A stretch of DNA of 64,000 nt, taken from assembly GCA_030431255.1 (NCBI GenBank), contig JAUIJL010000002.1, forward strand, positions 1 to 64,000, read 5' to 3'. Below, piece by piece: positions 17,187-27,082 of this stretch. Position 1 is the first letter of the stretch. Each line of letters begins with the position of its first letter. The notes beneath the pieces are model-generated. The model was not told the origin of the DNA and ran no database searches. It worked only from the letters and a program-made list of their open reading frames with translations. This stretch comes from Thermoanaerobaculia bacterium (GTDB taxonomy: Bacteria > Acidobacteriota > Thermoanaerobaculia > Multivoradales > J023). A program made the translations under genes and the position numbers.

Positions 17187-17828
17187 TTGGACGAGGAACG
17201 GGGGCGGCTGACGCCCCGCGATGTAGAGCTGGCCCTGGCGGGGGATGCCCGCGCCGTCGACCGCTTGGTGGACGCGCTTGCACCCGTGATCCAAGACCGG
17301 GTCGCCCGTGTCCTGTTGCGCAGCTCCCCGGGTCGTCCCAACCTGCGCGCGGTGGTGGAGGATCTGACCCAGGAGATCTTCCTCGAGCTCTTCGACGATC
17401 GCGGCAAGGTGTTGCGCGATTGGCGGCCCGACCGGGGTCTTCCGTTGGAGTCCTTCGTCGCCATGGTCGCCGAGCGGCGGGTGATCTCCCGCCTGCGGCG
17501 CAAGCGACGCAATCCGTGGACCGAGGAGCCCACGGAAATCGACGAGCTGGATCGGCGAGCCCCCGAGCCGGCCGCGGACGAGCGAGCCATCCAGCGCGAC
17601 GGCCTGGGACGCCTGCTGCACCGGCTCTACGCTGAGCTGGAGCCCCGGGGACGCCAACTCTTCGAGCTTCTCTTCGTCAAAGAATGCTCCGTCGCCGAGG
17701 TCCAAGCGGCGACCCACCTGGAGCCCGGCGCCATCTACGCTTGGCGTAGCCGTCTGCGAAAATTGGCCCGTCGGCTGCGGGAGGAGGAGCGACCTCGCCT
17801 GCCACCCCCTGATGAGGAGGGAGCGTAA
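17187..17828 (+). CDS. ECF-type sigma factor of the CHAT/subtilase unit
   Basis: 213 aa starting at TTG 17187 behind the purine-rich GGGGGGAAAA. Region 2 is visible in VVEDLTQEIFLELFDD, DWRPDRGLPLESFVAMVA and RRVISRLRRKRRNP. The C-terminal region 4 helix-turn-helix is in LFELLFVKECSVAEVQAATHLE and AIYAWRSRLRKLARRL. The stop codon overlaps the next start (TAATG), so it is translationally coupled to the TPR-CHAT membrane protein, a normal place for an anti-sigma factor. It probably directs RNA polymerase to a small regulon. Target promoters are not visible from sequence alone. Confidence 0.88.
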   Translation: MDEERGRLTPRDVELALAGDARAVDRLVDALAPVIQDRVARVLLRSSPGRPNLRAVVEDLTQEIFLELFDDRGKVLRDWRPDRGLPLESFVAMVAERRVISRLRRKRRNPWTEEPTEIDELDRRAPEPAADERAIQRDGLGRLLHRLYAELEPRGRQLFELLFVKECSVAEVQAATHLEPGAIYAWRSRLRKLARRLREEERPRLPPPDEEGA

Positions 17829-20800
17829 TGTCCGATTCCCGCGAAGACCTGGATTCCCGCGAAGACCGGGACCCCCGCGATGACCTCTTGCGCGACCTCG
17901 GAGCCCGCGCCCGCGAGGAGGCGGAAAGCGAAGCCCGGGAGCTCGACGAGCGCTGGACCCGTCTCGCCGCCGGCACGGCCACGGAGTCGGAAATCGACGA
18001 GCTGCGGGCCCTGGCCGAGCAGGATCCGCGAGCGGCCCAAAAGTGGCAGGCCTTCCGCCCCCTCGATACCGACTTCCGTCGGCGCCTCGCCGGTGCGGCC
18101 CTACAACACATCGCTTCGGAGAAGTCTGCGCAAGTGCCTGGCACCCAGTCTGCGCAAGTGCCTGGCACCCGGAGCGCGGCGTCTCCAGAAGTGCCTGACA
18201 CCCCTAGCGAATCGTCCTCAAAAGTGCCGATACCTTTCCGCCGAACCGTGGCCGTTCGCCTCTTGGCCGTTGCCGCCACCCTCGTGCTCATGATCGGCTT
18301 GCTGCTTCAAACCCGCGGCCCACGCTCGGAGGGGCTCTTCACCGACCTCTCCGTGAGCGGCAACCGATCCCGCTCCTTGCGCCCGCCGGACGGTCTGCCC
18401 GATCTCCCCGATACACCCGCGACATCGCCCCTGCCCGGTCTGGAATCGGGGCGAGACGTCTTCCTCACCCTCCGGATCGGCGAGAAGGATCCGGCGGCGT
18501 CGGTTCCGCTCCATCGGGTGAGCCTTTTCATGCGGGATGACGAAGGGACCTTGCACCCCTTGACCCTCGAGCACGAGACCCGCGCTGCCGGAAAGATCGA
18601 TCTACGAGCGACGATCCCGGCGGTCCCTTCAGGACAAGCCGACCTGATCGTCGCCATTCACCCCGGCCGGACAGTGACCACCGAGCAAGTCCGGGGCAGC
18701 TGGAAGGGGCGGCTCACCGACGTCCTCTACGGCTCGTGGCAACGGATGCGACGTGAGGTTCGGGTGACGGTGCATGATCCAGACCTGACGGTGGAATTTG
18801 CCGGTTGCTCGGCGGTGCGCGCACCGCCTACCGACACCGGAGCCACCGAGCCCATTTGCGAGCTCGGCGAGTCCCTACGCCTCTGGGTCTCTTCGAATCC
18901 GTTGGACGCCATCGACATCACCCTGAACGGGCGGCCCGTGCCGCCGGCAGACGGCGAGCCCACCGCGGGAGGGCTCGCTTTTCTTTTTCAGAGCCCTGTT
19001 CCGGGTCGGCTCACCGTCCGCGCAGGCACGGGACCGTCGACCGCCGTCCAACACATCCGCTTGGTACCCCCACGCACCGACGAGCTCCGTCGACAAGCCG
19101 CGGAAGTCCGCAAGCGAGGGCGGATCGCTTTTGCTAGGGGACGAACCGTCGAGGCCGTGGGGCTGCTGCGGGAGTCGGCGGAGCTTCATCGCCGGCTCGG
19201 ATTGATCTCCACCCAAATCGACGACCTCAACCTGGTCTTCTACGCCCTCCTCGAACGCATGGGCAAGCTCGAAGAAGCCCGCGCCCTTTTGGACGCGCTG
19301 CCCGAGCCGGCCGGCGGCGACGGCACCTCGGCATTTCTCGCAAGCTTCTCCCGGGGCACCCTGGCCCTGGAGACGGGACGCCTGGCCGACGCCCTACGAC
19401 ACCTGGCCGACGCCGCCCGCCACAGTGAGCGCATCGGCTGGTCGGCCCATCGCAACATGGCCGAGCAGCAGCTCATGCGCATCCTGCGTCGACTTGGCCG
19501 AGGCTCCCAGGCCGACGATCTGCGCACCCGCCTCGCCGGCGAGCTCCACCTTTTTCACGATTGTCAAAAGCCGACTCTGGTCAACAACTTGGCTTGGGAT
19601 CATCTACGATCCTTCAACCCCGAAACCCCCGAGCCGGCCCAGCACTTAGCTCCCACTCTCGAGCTTCTACGCACAGGCTTGAATCACCTCGACCGCTGTC
19701 GTCAACCCGTCAACGAGGAGAAGGCCAACCTCCACCTCAACACAGCCATGGCGTCTCTCTACGCGGGAAAGGCGAGCGATGCCGAAAAGCATCTTCGCCT
19801 AGCCTCTTCGATCGAAGGGGGCCTGCCCCCTCGCCTGAAGGCCTGGCAGCTCGATTTGCAGGCCCGATTGTCGCTGCATCGGGGGCGAGCGCATGAAGCG
19901 CTGGCTACGGCCCAGACCTTGGCCGTCCTGGCCGAACAAGGCCAAGACCCCGAAGCCGGATGGCGAGCGGCACGCCTAGAAGCTGAGGCGTCGGAAGCTT
20001 TGGGAGACTTCGAAGGTGCCCTGCGGGCCTATGCTGTGGCCGAGCGGCGGTTGGACAAAGAAAGCGGACAGGTGCCCCTCGACGCCGACCGAGCCTCCTC
20101 CCTCACGGCTCGAAGCCGTGCCACGGGAGCCCATTTGGACCTCCTCCTGCGCCAGGGGGAGGTAGACACCGCCTTTGAGGTCGCCCGCCATGCGCGGGTG
20201 CGTCTTTACCGTGGTGAGCTCTCTGGCGCAGCGCCTCGGCTGATGAGCCGCAGCGAGCTCGAGGCGTGGGTGGCGGCGCGGCGACGATTCCGCTCAGAGA
20301 TCGGCGAATCGGCTTCTCTCGCCGGCTCCACTGCCGACGCCGCCCGCCGGCTCGAGGAGCTGGCCGCCGCCGTGGCTCCCCTGGATCGGCGCCTCGAAGC
20401 CTTGGGTCTCGGATCGGATCAGCCTCTGCCGGAGCCGGCTCCGGAAGAGCTGATCCTGCTTTTCCATCCCCTTGTGGACGGCGCGTGGGTGGGTTTCGGA
20501 GCCATCGACGGGCAGGTGCAAGCCCATCGGTTTCCCTCGATCAAGCTGGCCGATTCACCACATTTGCTCACGCCGTTCGCGGATTTGATCGCTGAGGCTG
20601 CCACGATCCGGATCCTGCCCATGGGTCCTCTCGTGGCGACGGATTTCCACGCCTTGCCCGTTCACGGCGGACCGCTGGTGGAGTCCGTGCCGGTGGTTTA
20701 CGGCCTCGACTTGCCCGTCGTCGGCCCAAACACCGGGGCCGACACCCACCCAACAGCGCTGTTGATCGCCGATCCAGGGGGTGATTTGCCCGCTGCCCGG

Positions 20801-21307
20801 GCAGAGCTCGAGATCGTGCGCTCGGCCCTGAGAAAATGGCGTCACCTCTCCGTCGAGCCGCATTCCGCCCAGAGCGTGCTCGGCGCCCTGCACCATGCCG
20901 ATCTCCTGCACTTCGCCGGTCACGCCGACTTCGCCGGTCGCGACGGGCTCGACAGCCATTTGCGCTTGGCCGGCGCGGACCGTCTTTCCGCCGCGGATCT
21001 GCTGTCGAGCGAGGCCACGGTGCCCCAGCTAGTGGTGCTTTCCGCCTGCGCCTCGGCCCGCTCCACCGTCGACCCCTTCTCACCCGGCCTGGGTCTGGCC
21101 CACGCGTTCTTGTTGCGTGGCAGCCACATGGTCTTAGGCGCCACCGAGCCCGTGGACGATCGGCTCACCCGTCGGCTTATGGAGCTTTTCTACCGCACCT
21201 GGAACGGCGACGCCGTCGATGCTCCCCGAGCTTTGCAGCGGGCCCAGCTGGCCTTGCGCGCGGAGGATCCTCGGGCCTGGAAAGCCTTCCGGCTGCTGAC
21301 CCGGTGA
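17828..21307 (+). CDS. One-TM TPR-CHAT (caspase-like) protein with anti-sigma-like N-terminus
   Basis: 1159 aa. The cytoplasmic, acidic N-terminus (1-140) contains a helical segment LDERWTRLAAGTATESEIDELRAL of the kind at the front of ECF anti-sigma proteins, without a zinc motif. One TM helix spans about 141-162. Beyond it lie a beta-rich segment (about 200-440, DVFLTLRIGEKDP), TPR repeats (about 440-760) and a C-terminal CHAT domain. CHAT catalytic residues are present: His1032 in LHFAGHADF and Cys1074 in VVLSACAS. CHAT domains are caspase/separase-like cysteine peptidases. Topology would place TPR and CHAT outside the cytoplasm, if the single TM is real. An 8-residue repeat (SAQVPGT) lies at 100-114. 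It may hold the sigma factor until a signal is sensed; this is inference. Confidence 0.85.
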   Translation: MSDSREDLDSREDRDPRDDLLRDLGARAREEAESEARELDERWTRLAAGTATESEIDELRALAEQDPRAAQKWQAFRPLDTDFRRRLAGAALQHIASEKSAQVPGTQSAQVPGTRSAASPEVPDTPSESSSKVPIPFRRTVAVRLLAVAATLVLMIGLLLQTRGPRSEGLFTDLSVSGNRSRSLRPPDGLPDLPDTPATSPLPGLESGRDVFLTLRIGEKDPAASVPLHRVSLFMRDDEGTLHPLTLEHETRAAGKIDLRATIPAVPSGQADLIVAIHPGRTVTTEQVRGSWKGRLTDVLYGSWQRMRREVRVTVHDPDLTVEFAGCSAVRAPPTDTGATEPICELGESLRLWVSSNPLDAIDITLNGRPVPPADGEPTAGGLAFLFQSPVPGRLTVRAGTGPSTAVQHIRLVPPRTDELRRQAAEVRKRGRIAFARGRTVEAVGLLRESAELHRRLGLISTQIDDLNLVFYALLERMGKLEEARALLDALPEPAGGDGTSAFLASFSRGTLALETGRLADALRHLADAARHSERIGWSAHRNMAEQQLMRILRRLGRGSQADDLRTRLAGELHLFHDCQKPTLVNNLAWDHLRSFNPETPEPAQHLAPTLELLRTGLNHLDRCRQPVNEEKANLHLNTAMASLYAGKASDAEKHLRLASSIEGGLPPRLKAWQLDLQARLSLHRGRAHEALATAQTLAVLAEQGQDPEAGWRAARLEAEASEALGDFEGALRAYAVAERRLDKESGQVPLDADRASSLTARSRATGAHLDLLLRQGEVDTAFEVARHARVRLYRGELSGAAPRLMSRSELEAWVAARRRFRSEIGESASLAGSTADAARRLEELAAAVAPLDRRLEALGLGSDQPLPEPAPEELILLFHPLVDGAWVGFGAIDGQVQAHRFPSIKLADSPHLLTPFADLIAEAATIRILPMGPLVATDFHALPVHGGPLVESVPVVYGLDLPVVGPNTGADTHPTALLIADPGGDLPAARAELEIVRSALRKWRHLSVEPHSAQSVLGALHHADLLHFAGHADFAGRDGLDSHLRLAGADRLSAADLLSSEATVPQLVVLSACASARSTVDPFSPGLGLAHAFLLRGSHMVLGATEPVDDRLTRRLMELFYRTWNGDAVDAPRALQRAQLALRAEDPRAWKAFRLLTR
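18124..18203 (+). repeat. In-frame 24-bp tandem duplication carrying a palindromic GTGCCTGGCAC motif
   Basis: Two copies of a 24-bp unit (18124-18147, 18148-18171), then a degraded third motif GAAGTGCCTGACACCC at 18188. The core GTGCC-T-GGCAC is a perfect small palindrome. It codes SAQVPGT in the CHAT protein juxtamembrane linker. Confidence 0.8.
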
Positions 21308-21431
21308 ATGCTCCGGCATCGTCTTTTTTCGCTCCCGATTTTTTCGCTCGAGGCGTCAGAAATCACCAACTGCCGGCGAAGGATCCGACGTAGACCTTCG
21401 TCCGTCCAAACTTTCCGACCCGGAGCCGCCC

Positions 21432-23363
21432 ATGTCCATACGAGCCTACTCATCCTCCCTCACCCACACCCACCTGCCGATGCTCGTCGGCCTGCTCTTC
21501 TCAGCGTCCGCAGCACTTGCCCTTCAATCCTCCCCTCCCTTGGATCCCACGGCCTCGGAGGTCCATTGGCGGCAAGTGGGGTCGATGTCCCATCCCGGCA
21601 TTCCGTGCCCGGCACCGAGCGCCGGTTGGAAGGCGCCGATTCAGCTGGATGCCGGCGGTGAGCGCTTTTGCATCTATGAATCTTCGGGAACCGTGAGCTC
21701 GACCGACGTCACCGCCCTGCGGACCACCACCGGCCTGCCGGAGCTGGAGCCGGATCGCATGGCCGTGCGTCCCTCCGGGGCGATCATCAACGCGCTACGC
21801 TCCGAGCAATCCGAGCGCTTTCTGGAGCAAGCAGGAGATGTGTGGCTGCCGCCCCCTCCTCCCTTCGCCGGTGGACAAGCACATCTCGGCTTGCTCGACA
21901 CCCAGCCGACCAGCGATCCCGGCGTGATGCTCGGAGCGGCCGACAATTCCCCCCACGGACGCACCCTGCGTCGATTCGCCCAATTCCTGCTGTGCAAAAC
22001 CCAGCCCTGCCCGGTGCAAAGCCACGCCCGGCTGAGCTTACCCCACACCGACTTCCACCCCACGGACCCGGAGCTTTCACCGCGAGACGAGGTCCAAGGC
22101 GGGCTCTTCGGCACCATCTCCGAGCTCGGTGAGCAATTGGTGGCGGAAGTGGCCGCGTGGACCGCCGGAGCGCCCCCCGGAGACCGCTTGGTGCTCAATT
22201 TATCGGTGGCTTGGGACGGCGCCCTCTTCGGCGGGCTGGAAACCGACGCCGGCGGCGCTCCCAATCCCGCCGACATGCCCGTGGACGTACGGCTGGTCTA
22301 TCGCGCCCTGGAGGACGCCGCGGACGCCGGTATTTTAGTCATCGCGGCCGCGGGCAATCGGGTGGACCATCGGCAGGCCCAGGGCGCCTTATTGCCGGCC
22401 GCATGGGAACGGGCTGCTTCCCCGTCCGCTTCAGGCGCGTATCGACCCCTGGTTTACGCCGTGGGTGGGGTCGATTCCCTGGGCCGCGAGCTCGCTCTCT
22501 CCCAGCCCCTCAGCCGACCGCCCCGGGTGGCCTACGCCGACCACGCGCTGCTCGAAAACGACGGCGCCGGCCCCACCGCCTTGCTCACCGGTAGCTCCGT
22601 AGCCGCTCTGGTGGTGTCGGTTGCGGCGGCGGCCGCTTGGTCCTACGATCTGAGCTTGAGCCCCGGCCAGCTCATGGATTTCCTCTACCTTTCCGGCGAT
22701 TCCCTCGCCGAGCCGGTAGAGCTCTGCCTGCCCGACGTCGACTCCGAGCCCTGTGCCTCCCAACGACCAGGAGTGCGACGTCTATCGATCTGCCGCGCGG
22801 TGGAAGCGGTGTGCTCGGCGGCCGGAGAATGCCCTGCTCCCTTCGACCTCGGCTCCCCTTCACCGTGTACGCCCTGGGCACCGTCACCCCCTGATCTCAG
22901 CGCCTTGGAAGAGGCTGCCTTCGAACCGGACGGATCCGCGACCTACGGCAGCTTCCTGATCGGCGATCCCGGAGCCCCCTGCATCGCGCCCAGCCTCACC
23001 GCCACGGCCGCGTTACCCAACCCCGATCCCTGCCCCAGCCGTCAATACAACGGCCTCGGTGCCACCCCTTGGGTGCGCCCCCAGCCGGGATCCAACCCTT
23101 GCCCCAACTGCCCAATCCTCGACCACAGCCTGCACGTCGAGATCTCCGACGACTTCGAGGGAACCCTCAGCAGCCCATCGCTCCTGGCGTGCGGCACATC
23201 CATCACCCTGCCGATGCCACCCCTCGCAGCGGCCGGCACCTTCCGGGTCGACGATCTCCCGCCACTCGGCGACTGCACAGAGGGCCTGCTCACCTTCGTC
23301 ACCACGGACGATGACGGCGAAAGCTCCACCTCCACCGTCAGCTCCGTGCGCATTTCGCCGTGA
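21432..23363 (+). CDS. Secreted subtilisin-like serine protease (S8 fold)
   Basis: 643 aa with an N-terminal signal peptide (about 15-31) after ribosome site GGAG. No family name is obvious at first sight, but the subtilase order is clear: Asp156 in HLGLLDTQ, His175 in NSPHGRTLRRF, the oxyanion Asn309 in ILVIAAAGN, and the nucleophile Ser389 in TGSSVAA. The spacing is normal. The C-terminal ~180 residues are Cys-rich and end in an immunoglobulin-like stretch (TFVTTDDDGESSTSTVSS). It follows the TPR-CHAT gene by 124 bp on the same strand and probably belongs to the same operon. The substrate is unknown. A prodomain is not evident. Confidence 0.82.
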   Translation: MSIRAYSSSLTHTHLPMLVGLLFSASAALALQSSPPLDPTASEVHWRQVGSMSHPGIPCPAPSAGWKAPIQLDAGGERFCIYESSGTVSSTDVTALRTTTGLPELEPDRMAVRPSGAIINALRSEQSERFLEQAGDVWLPPPPPFAGGQAHLGLLDTQPTSDPGVMLGAADNSPHGRTLRRFAQFLLCKTQPCPVQSHARLSLPHTDFHPTDPELSPRDEVQGGLFGTISELGEQLVAEVAAWTAGAPPGDRLVLNLSVAWDGALFGGLETDAGGAPNPADMPVDVRLVYRALEDAADAGILVIAAAGNRVDHRQAQGALLPAAWERAASPSASGAYRPLVYAVGGVDSLGRELALSQPLSRPPRVAYADHALLENDGAGPTALLTGSSVAALVVSVAAAAAWSYDLSLSPGQLMDFLYLSGDSLAEPVELCLPDVDSEPCASQRPGVRRLSICRAVEAVCSAAGECPAPFDLGSPSPCTPWAPSPPDLSALEEAAFEPDGSATYGSFLIGDPGAPCIAPSLTATAALPNPDPCPSRQYNGLGATPWVRPQPGSNPCPNCPILDHSLHVEISDDFEGTLSSPSLLACGTSITLPMPPLAAAGTFRVDDLPPLGDCTEGLLTFVTTDDDGESSTSTVSSVRISP

Positions 23364-26116: not shown

Positions 26117-27082
26117 ATGTCCAGATTTCCCCGTCTCTGGACCCGACCCAACGCCGGCGTCGCCATCACGAATCGCTGCATCCAAGGGAGACATCTGCTC
26201 AAACCCAGCCCGCGCCTCAACAAAATCATTATCGGGGCGCTTGCCAAAGCCCAAGAAAAATACCCTGTCGAGATCTACAGCGGTGCTTTCATGAGCAGCC
26301 ATTTCCACCTCCACATACAGGCTCCAACCGTGAAAATCCAGGCCGATTTCATGGCCCACTTTACTCGCAAGCTATCGTTCGAAACCGGCGTCCTCTACGA
26401 CTGGAAGACCCGCACATTTCCCGATCGATACCACTCTTCGGAAGTCTCCCAAGAACCCGAGGCCCAAATTCGGCGGCTCGTCTATCACCTCCAACACGGT
26501 GCAAAAGAAGGGCTTGTATCCAGCCCATTGGACTGGTCCGGCGTCAACTTTCTCGACGCCTTGATCACAGGTGAGCCCCTCAAGGGCATCTGGATCGACC
26601 GTTCCGGGTACTACCGTGCAAGCCGGCGAGACGAAAACGTCACCCTCGAGGATTTCACCGAGCACCTGGAGCTGCCCATCGCCCCGTTGCCTTGCTGGGC
26701 CCATCTGAGCCAGGAGTCTCGCCGTGATCTAGTGCTGGAGATCATCCGAGAGATCGAAGAAGAAACCGCGGCACATCACGCCGCTAACGGCACTACTCCA
26801 CTGGGCGTGAAAGCGGTGCTCGCCGGCGATCCCCACGACTACCCCAAAAAGCTCAAGAAGTCGCCACAGCCGCAATTTCACGCCTTTCGCAAGAAGATCC
26901 GCCAAGAGATGAAAGAGGCGTATTCGCTGATCTTGGCGGCCTACTGCGAGGCGTCGAAGCGTCTGCGAGCCGGAGAACGAAATGTAGAGTTTCCCGAAAA
27001 CTCCTTTCCACCCGGGTTGCCGTTCGTCGAGCCGACTTGGGCGATGGCGGGACATCTGATGAGGTCGCCTGAGCCCGGCTAG
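26117..27082 (+). CDS. REP-associated tyrosine transposase (RAYT, Y1 HUH family)
   Basis: 321 aa. The start ATG at 26117 follows GAGAGGGGTGAGCC. The N-terminus SRFPRLW...AVAITNRCIQGRHLL matches Y1 transposase openings. The HUH metal site is H62-F-H64 in MSSHFHLHI. A candidate catalytic Tyr123 lies in RRLVYHLQHGAKEGLVSSP, which matches the family pattern Y-x-x-x-NP-x-x-x-GL. RAYTs are domesticated single-copy relatives of IS200/IS605 transposases that process REP hairpins. It is not bounded by inverted ends here, but four arrays of a shared 16-mer surround it (25.8, 27.4, 30.5 and 35.7 kb). It looks full-length and intact. Confidence 0.88.
   Translation: MSRFPRLWTRPNAGVAITNRCIQGRHLLKPSPRLNKIIIGALAKAQEKYPVEIYSGAFMSSHFHLHIQAPTVKIQADFMAHFTRKLSFETGVLYDWKTRTFPDRYHSSEVSQEPEAQIRRLVYHLQHGAKEGLVSSPLDWSGVNFLDALITGEPLKGIWIDRSGYYRASRRDENVTLEDFTEHLELPIAPLPCWAHLSQESRRDLVLEIIREIEEETAAHHAANGTTPLGVKAVLAGDPHDYPKKLKKSPQPQFHAFRKKIRQEMKEAYSLILAAYCEASKRLRAGERNVEFPENSFPPGLPFVEPTWAMAGHLMRSPEPG

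Follow-up and report, generated by a model that had tools for sequence, protein, structure and literature searches.

An ECF sigma factor, a fused anti-sigma-CHAT protein and a subtilase in a Thermoanaerobaculia bacterium: a candidate switch with a protease built into its anti-sigma

How might a sigma factor be set free when the membrane protein that would hold it carries a protease domain of its own? This question is raised by a locus of a Thermoanaerobaculia bacterium (assembly GCA_030431255.1), found within the first 64,000 nucleotides of contig JAUIJL010000002.1 (hereafter the window). Here, a gene for an extracytoplasmic function (ECF) sigma factor, a gene for a protein with a single transmembrane (TM) helix, a tetratricopeptide repeat (TPR)-like region and a C-terminal CHAT domain, and a gene for a secreted subtilase follow one another (Table 1). 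The architecture of this unit and its conservation are well supported, and for the release of the sigma factor we put forward a hypothesis. We lean towards a model in which the unit is an ECF sigma/anti-sigma switch with a caspase-like, extracytoplasmic sensor-protease built into the anti-sigma; the CHAT domain would cut the anti-sigma to free the sigma factor. A sequence-only reading of the locus had sketched a related scheme, in which an outside signal, possibly subtilase cleavage, acts on a combined anchor and peptidase; that interpretation held up in part and was corrected as to where the CHAT domain lies and which precedents exist.

Gene order in the window and in related loci

The three open reading frames (ORFs) of the earlier reading, with their overlap and spacing, agree with the ORF coordinates: one base is common to the TAA stop of the sigma gene (17826-17828) and the ATG of the CHAT gene (17828), and 124 bp separate the CHAT-gene stop from the subtilase start. 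The sigma factor has the sigma2 and sigma4 domains only, as in ECF factors; it exceeds the cut-offs of TIGR02937 and Sigma70_r2 and falls slightly below that of Sigma70 r4_2 (23.4 bits, cut-off 25.7). The CHAT domain matches PF12770 with 109.2 bits over residues 914-1154 (cut-off 24) and combines the His/Cys dyad with a separase/Csx29-like fold, features of a CHAT peptidase for which protease activity is predicted. The catalytic residues that had been picked out from the letters are intact and do not vary within the family. H1032 and C1074 are invariant in 17/17 aligned CHATs, and D156, H175, N309 and S389, the Asp/His/Ser triad and oxyanion Asn of the S8 family, are invariant in 15/15 aligned subtilases, the window's protein being counted in both alignments. 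An S8 match at E<=0.01 was obtained for 12 of the 15 subtilases, the family profile retrieves subtilisins and mycosins from the PDB (best E 5.8e-9), and the mycosin model gives a weak match to the window subtilase (35.5 bits, cut-off 278.75).

Table 1. Features of the unit in the window (positions are those of the window)
Feature	Coordinates	Strand	Remarks
ECF sigma factor, 213 aa, TTG start	17187..17828	+	TIGR02937 51.7 bits (cut-off 42.9); Sigma70_r2 26.6 bits (cut-off 24)
Fused anti-sigma / TM / beta domain / TPR / CHAT protein, 1159 aa	17828..21307	+	
N-terminal helical anti-sigma domain, residues 16-101	17873..18130	+	five predicted helices; homologous to the separate anti-sigma genes of relatives
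AAGTGCCTGGCACC dispersed repeat, three in-frame copies (one mismatched), in predicted cytoplasmic linker	18132..18202	+	
TM helix, single, residues 141-159	18248..18304	+	
Predicted beta-sandwich after TM helix, residues 171-314	18338..18769	+	fold match Z 9.0 over 113 residues
Arg185, invariant Arg column (17/17 aligned anti-sigmas), candidate cleavage position	18380..18382	+	Pro next in the window copy
Second beta domain, residues 321-413	18788..19066	+	mature CHAT of relatives starts here
TPR-like helical region, residues 419-858	19082..20401	+	
CHAT domain	20567..21289	+	His1032 at 20921-20923; Cys1074 at 21047-21049
Divergent secreted subtilase, 643 aa	21432..23363	+	Asp156/His175/Asn309/Ser389

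The order of the genes is conserved beyond this genome. Of 72 genomes from this order, 13 (the source genome among them) are matched at E<=1e-20 by a profile of two fused CHATs, that of the window and that of a second unit described below. We examined 20 related loci with strong profile matches (L054-L056, L065-L081) in 11 genomes of the order other than the source genome. Sigma, membrane anti-sigma, TPR-CHAT and subtilase genes follow one another in this sequence on one strand in 14 of the 20, with CHAT as a gene of its own; the comparison across genomes that the earlier reading had called for thus came out in its favor. Among these loci, the anti-sigma of L077 was detected solely by BLAST, and the subtilase of L070, L071, L074 and L080 extends as far as a contig end or the limit of the sequence read. 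Another five (L056, L072, L073, L078 and L081) are interrupted by contig ends.

Could the order be an accident of a genome crowded with CHAT and ECF genes? The source genome (10.19 Mb, 54 contigs) does hold 45 CHAT matches, 44 of them above cut-off, and at least 144 sigma matches (150 of 190 candidates scored), together with 19 S8 matches at E<=0.01. However, a co-directional sigma gene lies no more than 6 kb upstream of 18 of the 45 CHAT domains, where about 1.9 would be expected with random positions; two of these 18 sigmas (C15:175206 and C15:105491) score below the family cut-off. Together with the related loci, of which 14 out of 20 show the full order and five more are interrupted by contig ends, these counts led us to reject a chance neighborhood, which is extremely improbable. 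Sigma-linked, apparently exported CHAT proteins are instead a common theme in this genome.

The unit also occurs farther afield. Phylum-wide searches returned 3/396 for CHAT and likewise for the subtilase, values that are lower bounds because only two candidates per listed genome were scored. Scanning a contig collection (84,980 species) with the subtilase alignment gave 36 loci, including ones from Sorangium, Polyangium, Nannocystis, Minicystis and Paraliomyxa. Of the 27 loci L094-L120, 13 match all four parts (the CHAT gene is broken in L101 and split in L104), and in L112, L113, L116 and L119 all four are kept with the genes re-ordered or inverted. Six have CHAT and subtilase with no convincing adjoining sigma match; L095 (which has a weak sigma match, 0.0016, downstream), L096, L097 and L120 are at a contig or fetch edge, and L103 and L117 are not. 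Among the gene clusters listed beside the unit, two recur, each in 3 of 28 loci.

A membrane anti-sigma module joined to an exported CHAT protein

The fused protein begins with what looks like a membrane anti-sigma factor: a helical N-terminal domain, a single TM helix and a gene adjoining that of the sigma factor, with the topology predicted. Its only hydrophobic helix (residues 141-159, mean Kyte-Doolittle value 2.51) coincides with the TM helix of an AlphaFold model of residues 1-320 (mean predicted local distance difference test [pLDDT] 75.2; helices 16-101, TM helix 140-162, beta-sandwich 171-314), so the one helix expected from the letters is predicted in two ways. We regard the N terminus as an anti-sigma module because relatives have a separate membrane-protein gene between sigma and CHAT and because 1 of 17 aligned modules matches the zinc domain zf-HC2; this bears out the anti-sigma-like character that had been ascribed to it. 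All 17 modules share P136, R185 and G255. The HxxxCxxC motif of zinc-binding anti-sigma factors was not found in the window anti-sigma and is present only in L076 and L101 among 32 anti-sigmas. In fold searches with the model of residues 1-320, the matches were taken up by the beta domain, so that these searches hardly bear on residues 1-101. The separate anti-sigmas of the 14 complete loci are ORFs of 245-384 aa, and 12 of them have one hydrophobic stretch.

The window gene is, on the comparison of these sequences, a fusion of an anti-sigma with an exported CHAT protein, because the CHAT of relatives is a separate gene with a lipobox-like N terminus. We scored separate-CHAT rows whose profile match begins near the N terminus, using a simple pattern and with true start codons uncertain, and found a lipobox-like Cys behind a hydrophobic stretch in 26 of 31, including all 14 complete loci. 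As for the other five, L056 and L097 are the same contig and have a hydrophobic stretch without the Cys, L073 begins at a contig end, the N-terminal end of L072 is out of frame in the sequence record, and L113 is unclear. Membrane anchor and peptidase are therefore indeed one protein in the window, as had been suggested, since both lie in one ORF. The same is true of a second full unit on contig C15 (L043), where sigma factor, fused anti-sigma-CHAT protein and subtilase match their window counterparts in phmmer (2.3e-21, 1.4e-59 and 3.4e-37). Because this second, intact fusion is just 32% identical to the first, we rejected a sequencing artefact. The anti-sigma runs directly into the mature CHAT protein in both copies; the fusion junction differs in three Polyangium species and Minicystis, where the CHAT part begins only after the first 93-100 profile positions. 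In a 37-row tree with six rows labeled as fused, well supported branches force at least three changes, whether gains or losses. The family thus suggests that a membrane anti-sigma and a CHAT protease became joined on more than one occasion.

The location of the CHAT domain follows less directly. The earlier reading had noted that CHAT domains are usually cytoplasmic, which fits poorly here: inspected by eye, the N termini of the 18 sigma-linked CHATs in the genome comprise 15 that are signal-peptide-like, two TM fusions and one (L017) that is neither and does look cytoplasmic. A cytoplasmic CHAT is unlikely because the relatives' CHATs have signal-peptide-like N termini, and the CHAT domain of the window protein probably lies outside the inner membrane. 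At 12 of the 18 sigma-linked loci, an ORF with a TM-like stretch (by eye) stands between sigma and CHAT.

A model of the full-length fused protein (mean pLDDT 75.2, pTM 0.65) has its best fold matches in the Craspase TPR-CHAT protein Csx29 (Z 28.4 for 7y83_D and 28.1 for 8eey_B), followed by separase (26.3), the transmembrane anti-sigma DdvA (Z 24.1 over 615 residues, root mean square deviation 7.1) and gingipain (Z 19.7). For most of these matches the root mean square deviation is large; the superposition is therefore good for parts only.

How the sigma factor might be released

In the model that we favor, the helical N terminus (residues 1-101) would hold the sigma factor in the cytoplasm, and the TM helix would place some 1000 residues, comprising the beta domains, the TPR superhelix and the CHAT domain, in the periplasm. 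When the TPR-CHAT part senses an extracytoplasmic signal, CHAT would cleave the anti-sigma a short way beyond the membrane, and the loop that contains the invariant Arg is the most likely place. Removal of the anti-sigma would then be completed by general proteases, both intramembrane and cytoplasmic, freeing the sigma factor. In most relatives, a separate CHAT lipoprotein would act in trans. The secreted, linked subtilase could be the trigger, by processing the signal or CHAT, or a product of the sigma factor.

The loop in question has a recurring motif. An Arg followed by a small residue occurs 19-33 residues past the TM helix in 31 of 32 anti-sigmas (next residue G in 14, S in 13, and A, N, T or P in one each), and the spacing from this Arg to an aromatic residue is 10-13, being 12 or 13 in 29 of them. 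The window is represented in this count by Arg182-Ser, a nearby alternative to the aligned Arg185. We treat the Arg-Gly/Ser-type loop only as a candidate cleavage site because the motif was spotted post hoc and in related sequences. Similar Arg-Gly/Ser stretches were seen by eye in L026, L029 and L032, that is, in 3 of 12 anti-sigmas of the source genome whose CHAT has no nearby subtilase match. Their presence there is a weak hint that CHAT, not the subtilase, reads the motif. A more specific version of the model, which we offer tentatively as something rather short of probable, makes CHAT the extracytoplasmic site-1 protease (in cis when fused, in trans as a lipoprotein) that cuts at the invariant Arg, some 20-30 residues beyond the membrane, and is switched on by the subtilase, giving a two-protease periplasmic cascade.

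The same loop could suit any trypsin-like site-1 protease, a class to which DegS belongs. Alternatively, the TPR-CHAT part might be a sensor that does not cut: it would bind a ligand or peptide, a change of shape would free the sigma factor, and general site-1 proteases would do whatever cleavage occurs. Fold matches to the TPR part do include TPR proteins that bind signal peptides, namely NprR-NprX (4gpk, Z 16.7) and Rap-Phr (6t46, Z 14.7). However, the His and Cys that are invariant in 17/17 CHATs over a large divergence would be unneeded in a mere sensor, and we consider this alternative unlikely.

Several observations weigh against the proposal of a switch built from CHAT, anti-sigma and subtilase. 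The PF00082 (S8) score of the window protein alone is 15.9 bits, under the cut-off of 21.8, and the anti-sigma profile found no PDB chain at E<=1. A second hydrophobic stretch, though a weak one, is seen in the separate anti-sigmas of L070 and L071. Pro, a poor P1' residue, follows Arg185 in the window, the motif was not found in the fused Minicystis protein (the sole exception among the 32), and, having been noticed after the fact in related sequences, it could be structural. L079, the remaining one of the 20 related loci, has CHAT and subtilase with no sigma or anti-sigma match. Eight of the 27 loci L094-L120 are without a strong match to the window CHAT family; they include L102, with a weak distant CHAT match (8e-7), and L106, a contig of 3.6 kb. 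Three of the eight have an ECF sigma gene close to the subtilase, which loosens the link between CHAT and subtilase. In two of them, L109 and L110 of Plesiocystis, the sigma gene immediately precedes the subtilase with no CHAT. In Enhygromyxa L105 (L105:1685-8410), an ECF sigma gene and a Ser/Thr kinase-WD40 gene precede a subtilase of the same family.

Because these three Myxococcota loci place the subtilase by an ECF sigma without CHAT, the subtilase may equally be an output. Carried further, this means that the subtilase, and CHAT with it, would be an exported protease pair that the sigma factor drives for nutrition or antagonism, in an operon that is merely autoregulated. Such a reading leaves unexplained both the repeated fusion of CHAT with the anti-sigma and the retention of all four parts in the rearranged L112, L113, L116 and L119, and we judge it quite unlikely. 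The kinase-WD40 gene of L105 puts a different sensor in the CHAT position.

Known systems and other loci of the genome

The unit has precedents, namely DdvA and the ECF54 loci that are reported to contain CHAT and subtilase genes. DdvA of Myxococcus xanthus (PDB 8rot, 8rw5) is called a "transmembrane anti-sigma" in the PDB titles and a "CHAT domain-containing protein" of 991 aa in the molecule name. Like the window protein, it unites a transmembrane anti-sigma and CHAT in one chain and has an ECF sigma partner, DdvS; our profile matches its CHAT end at E 7.8e-12, and the fold match covers TPR and CHAT. Kinship of the N-terminal halves is not shown because the anti-sigma profile lacks a PDB match. 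The linked subtilase gene of the unit may set it apart from DdvA. Control of cyclic-oligonucleotide-based antiphage signaling system (CBASS) and CRISPR genes is a trait of the DdvA type. According to excerpts of PMC12288465, DdvS controls an antiphage defence island. PADLOC gave no match among 10 proteins of the window locus (three of the unit and seven neighbors), and a defence-island role of the unit was rejected for that locus. As of 2015, it was not known what signal inactivates DdvA (excerpt of PMC4374960), and the linked secreted subtilase and the defined Arg loop offer handles on this type of question.

Other systems are more distant. The ECF54 example from Geodermatophilus, compared by gene context, is reported to have CHAT and subtilase genes near the sigma gene, but in section 3.3 of PMC8999054 it is said to be without an anti-sigma, whereas the window unit has an anti-sigma module. 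In Craspase (Csx29/Csx30/CASP-sigma; PMC10028731, in part), the best fold match, a TPR-CHAT protease relieves the inhibition of an ECF sigma; Csx29 acts with the Cas7-11 effector on Csx30, whereas the window CHAT appears to be exported and is joined to a membrane anti-sigma. CalpL/CalpT/CalpS likewise frees an ECF sigma by cutting an anti-sigma, but CalpL is a Lon-type protease triggered by cyclic tetra-adenylate, so protease and signal are unlike those of the window unit (excerpt of PMC11417357). RseA shares with our model the stepwise cutting of a membrane anti-sigma (PMC10028731, in part), with the difference that its site-1 protease DegS is separate and the window protease domain lies within the anti-sigma. 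What is apparently new is the split lipoprotein form, the linked subtilase, the repeated fusion and the Arg-Gly/Ser-type motif outside the membrane. Among the matches listed, going by titles and abstract openings, we recognized no description of the four-gene unit, which does not prove its absence.

Two further loci of the genome, L017 and L041, pair sigma and CHAT with a subtilase. L041 is, as we read it, a related unit with its genes rearranged: the sigma gene is followed by a lipobox-like CHAT, then by the anti-sigma and the subtilase. A match to the family was obtained for the L041 anti-sigma (97% probability), in which VR-S is aligned at the place of the motif Arg, and not for the L041 subtilase (13%). 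L017 (C53:9000-21000) has a different layout of ECF sigma, apparently cytoplasmic TPR-CHAT, a 215-aa ORF and a strong subtilase (120.8 bits). L035 consists of CHAT, a 319-aa ORF and a subtilase, with no sigma match.

L040 (C15:998155-1003204) is a tandem pair of CHAT genes with equal domain scores (110.5 bits), probably a recent duplication, and the AAGTGCCTGGCACC repeat lies just upstream of each. This 14-mer, also present in the linker of the window protein, occurs 87 times in the genome; the reversed control occurs 0 times. Several of its arrays have a spacing that is a multiple of 3, and one (C42:144301-144557) lies inside another CHAT gene, so the repeat may be a repetitive extragenic palindromic (REP)-like element spreading in frame within coding genes. 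An IS200-like Y1 transposase gene at window positions 26117-27082 (PF01797 21.4 bits, below the cut-off of 23) is, we assume, possibly a REP-associated transposase tied to this repeat.

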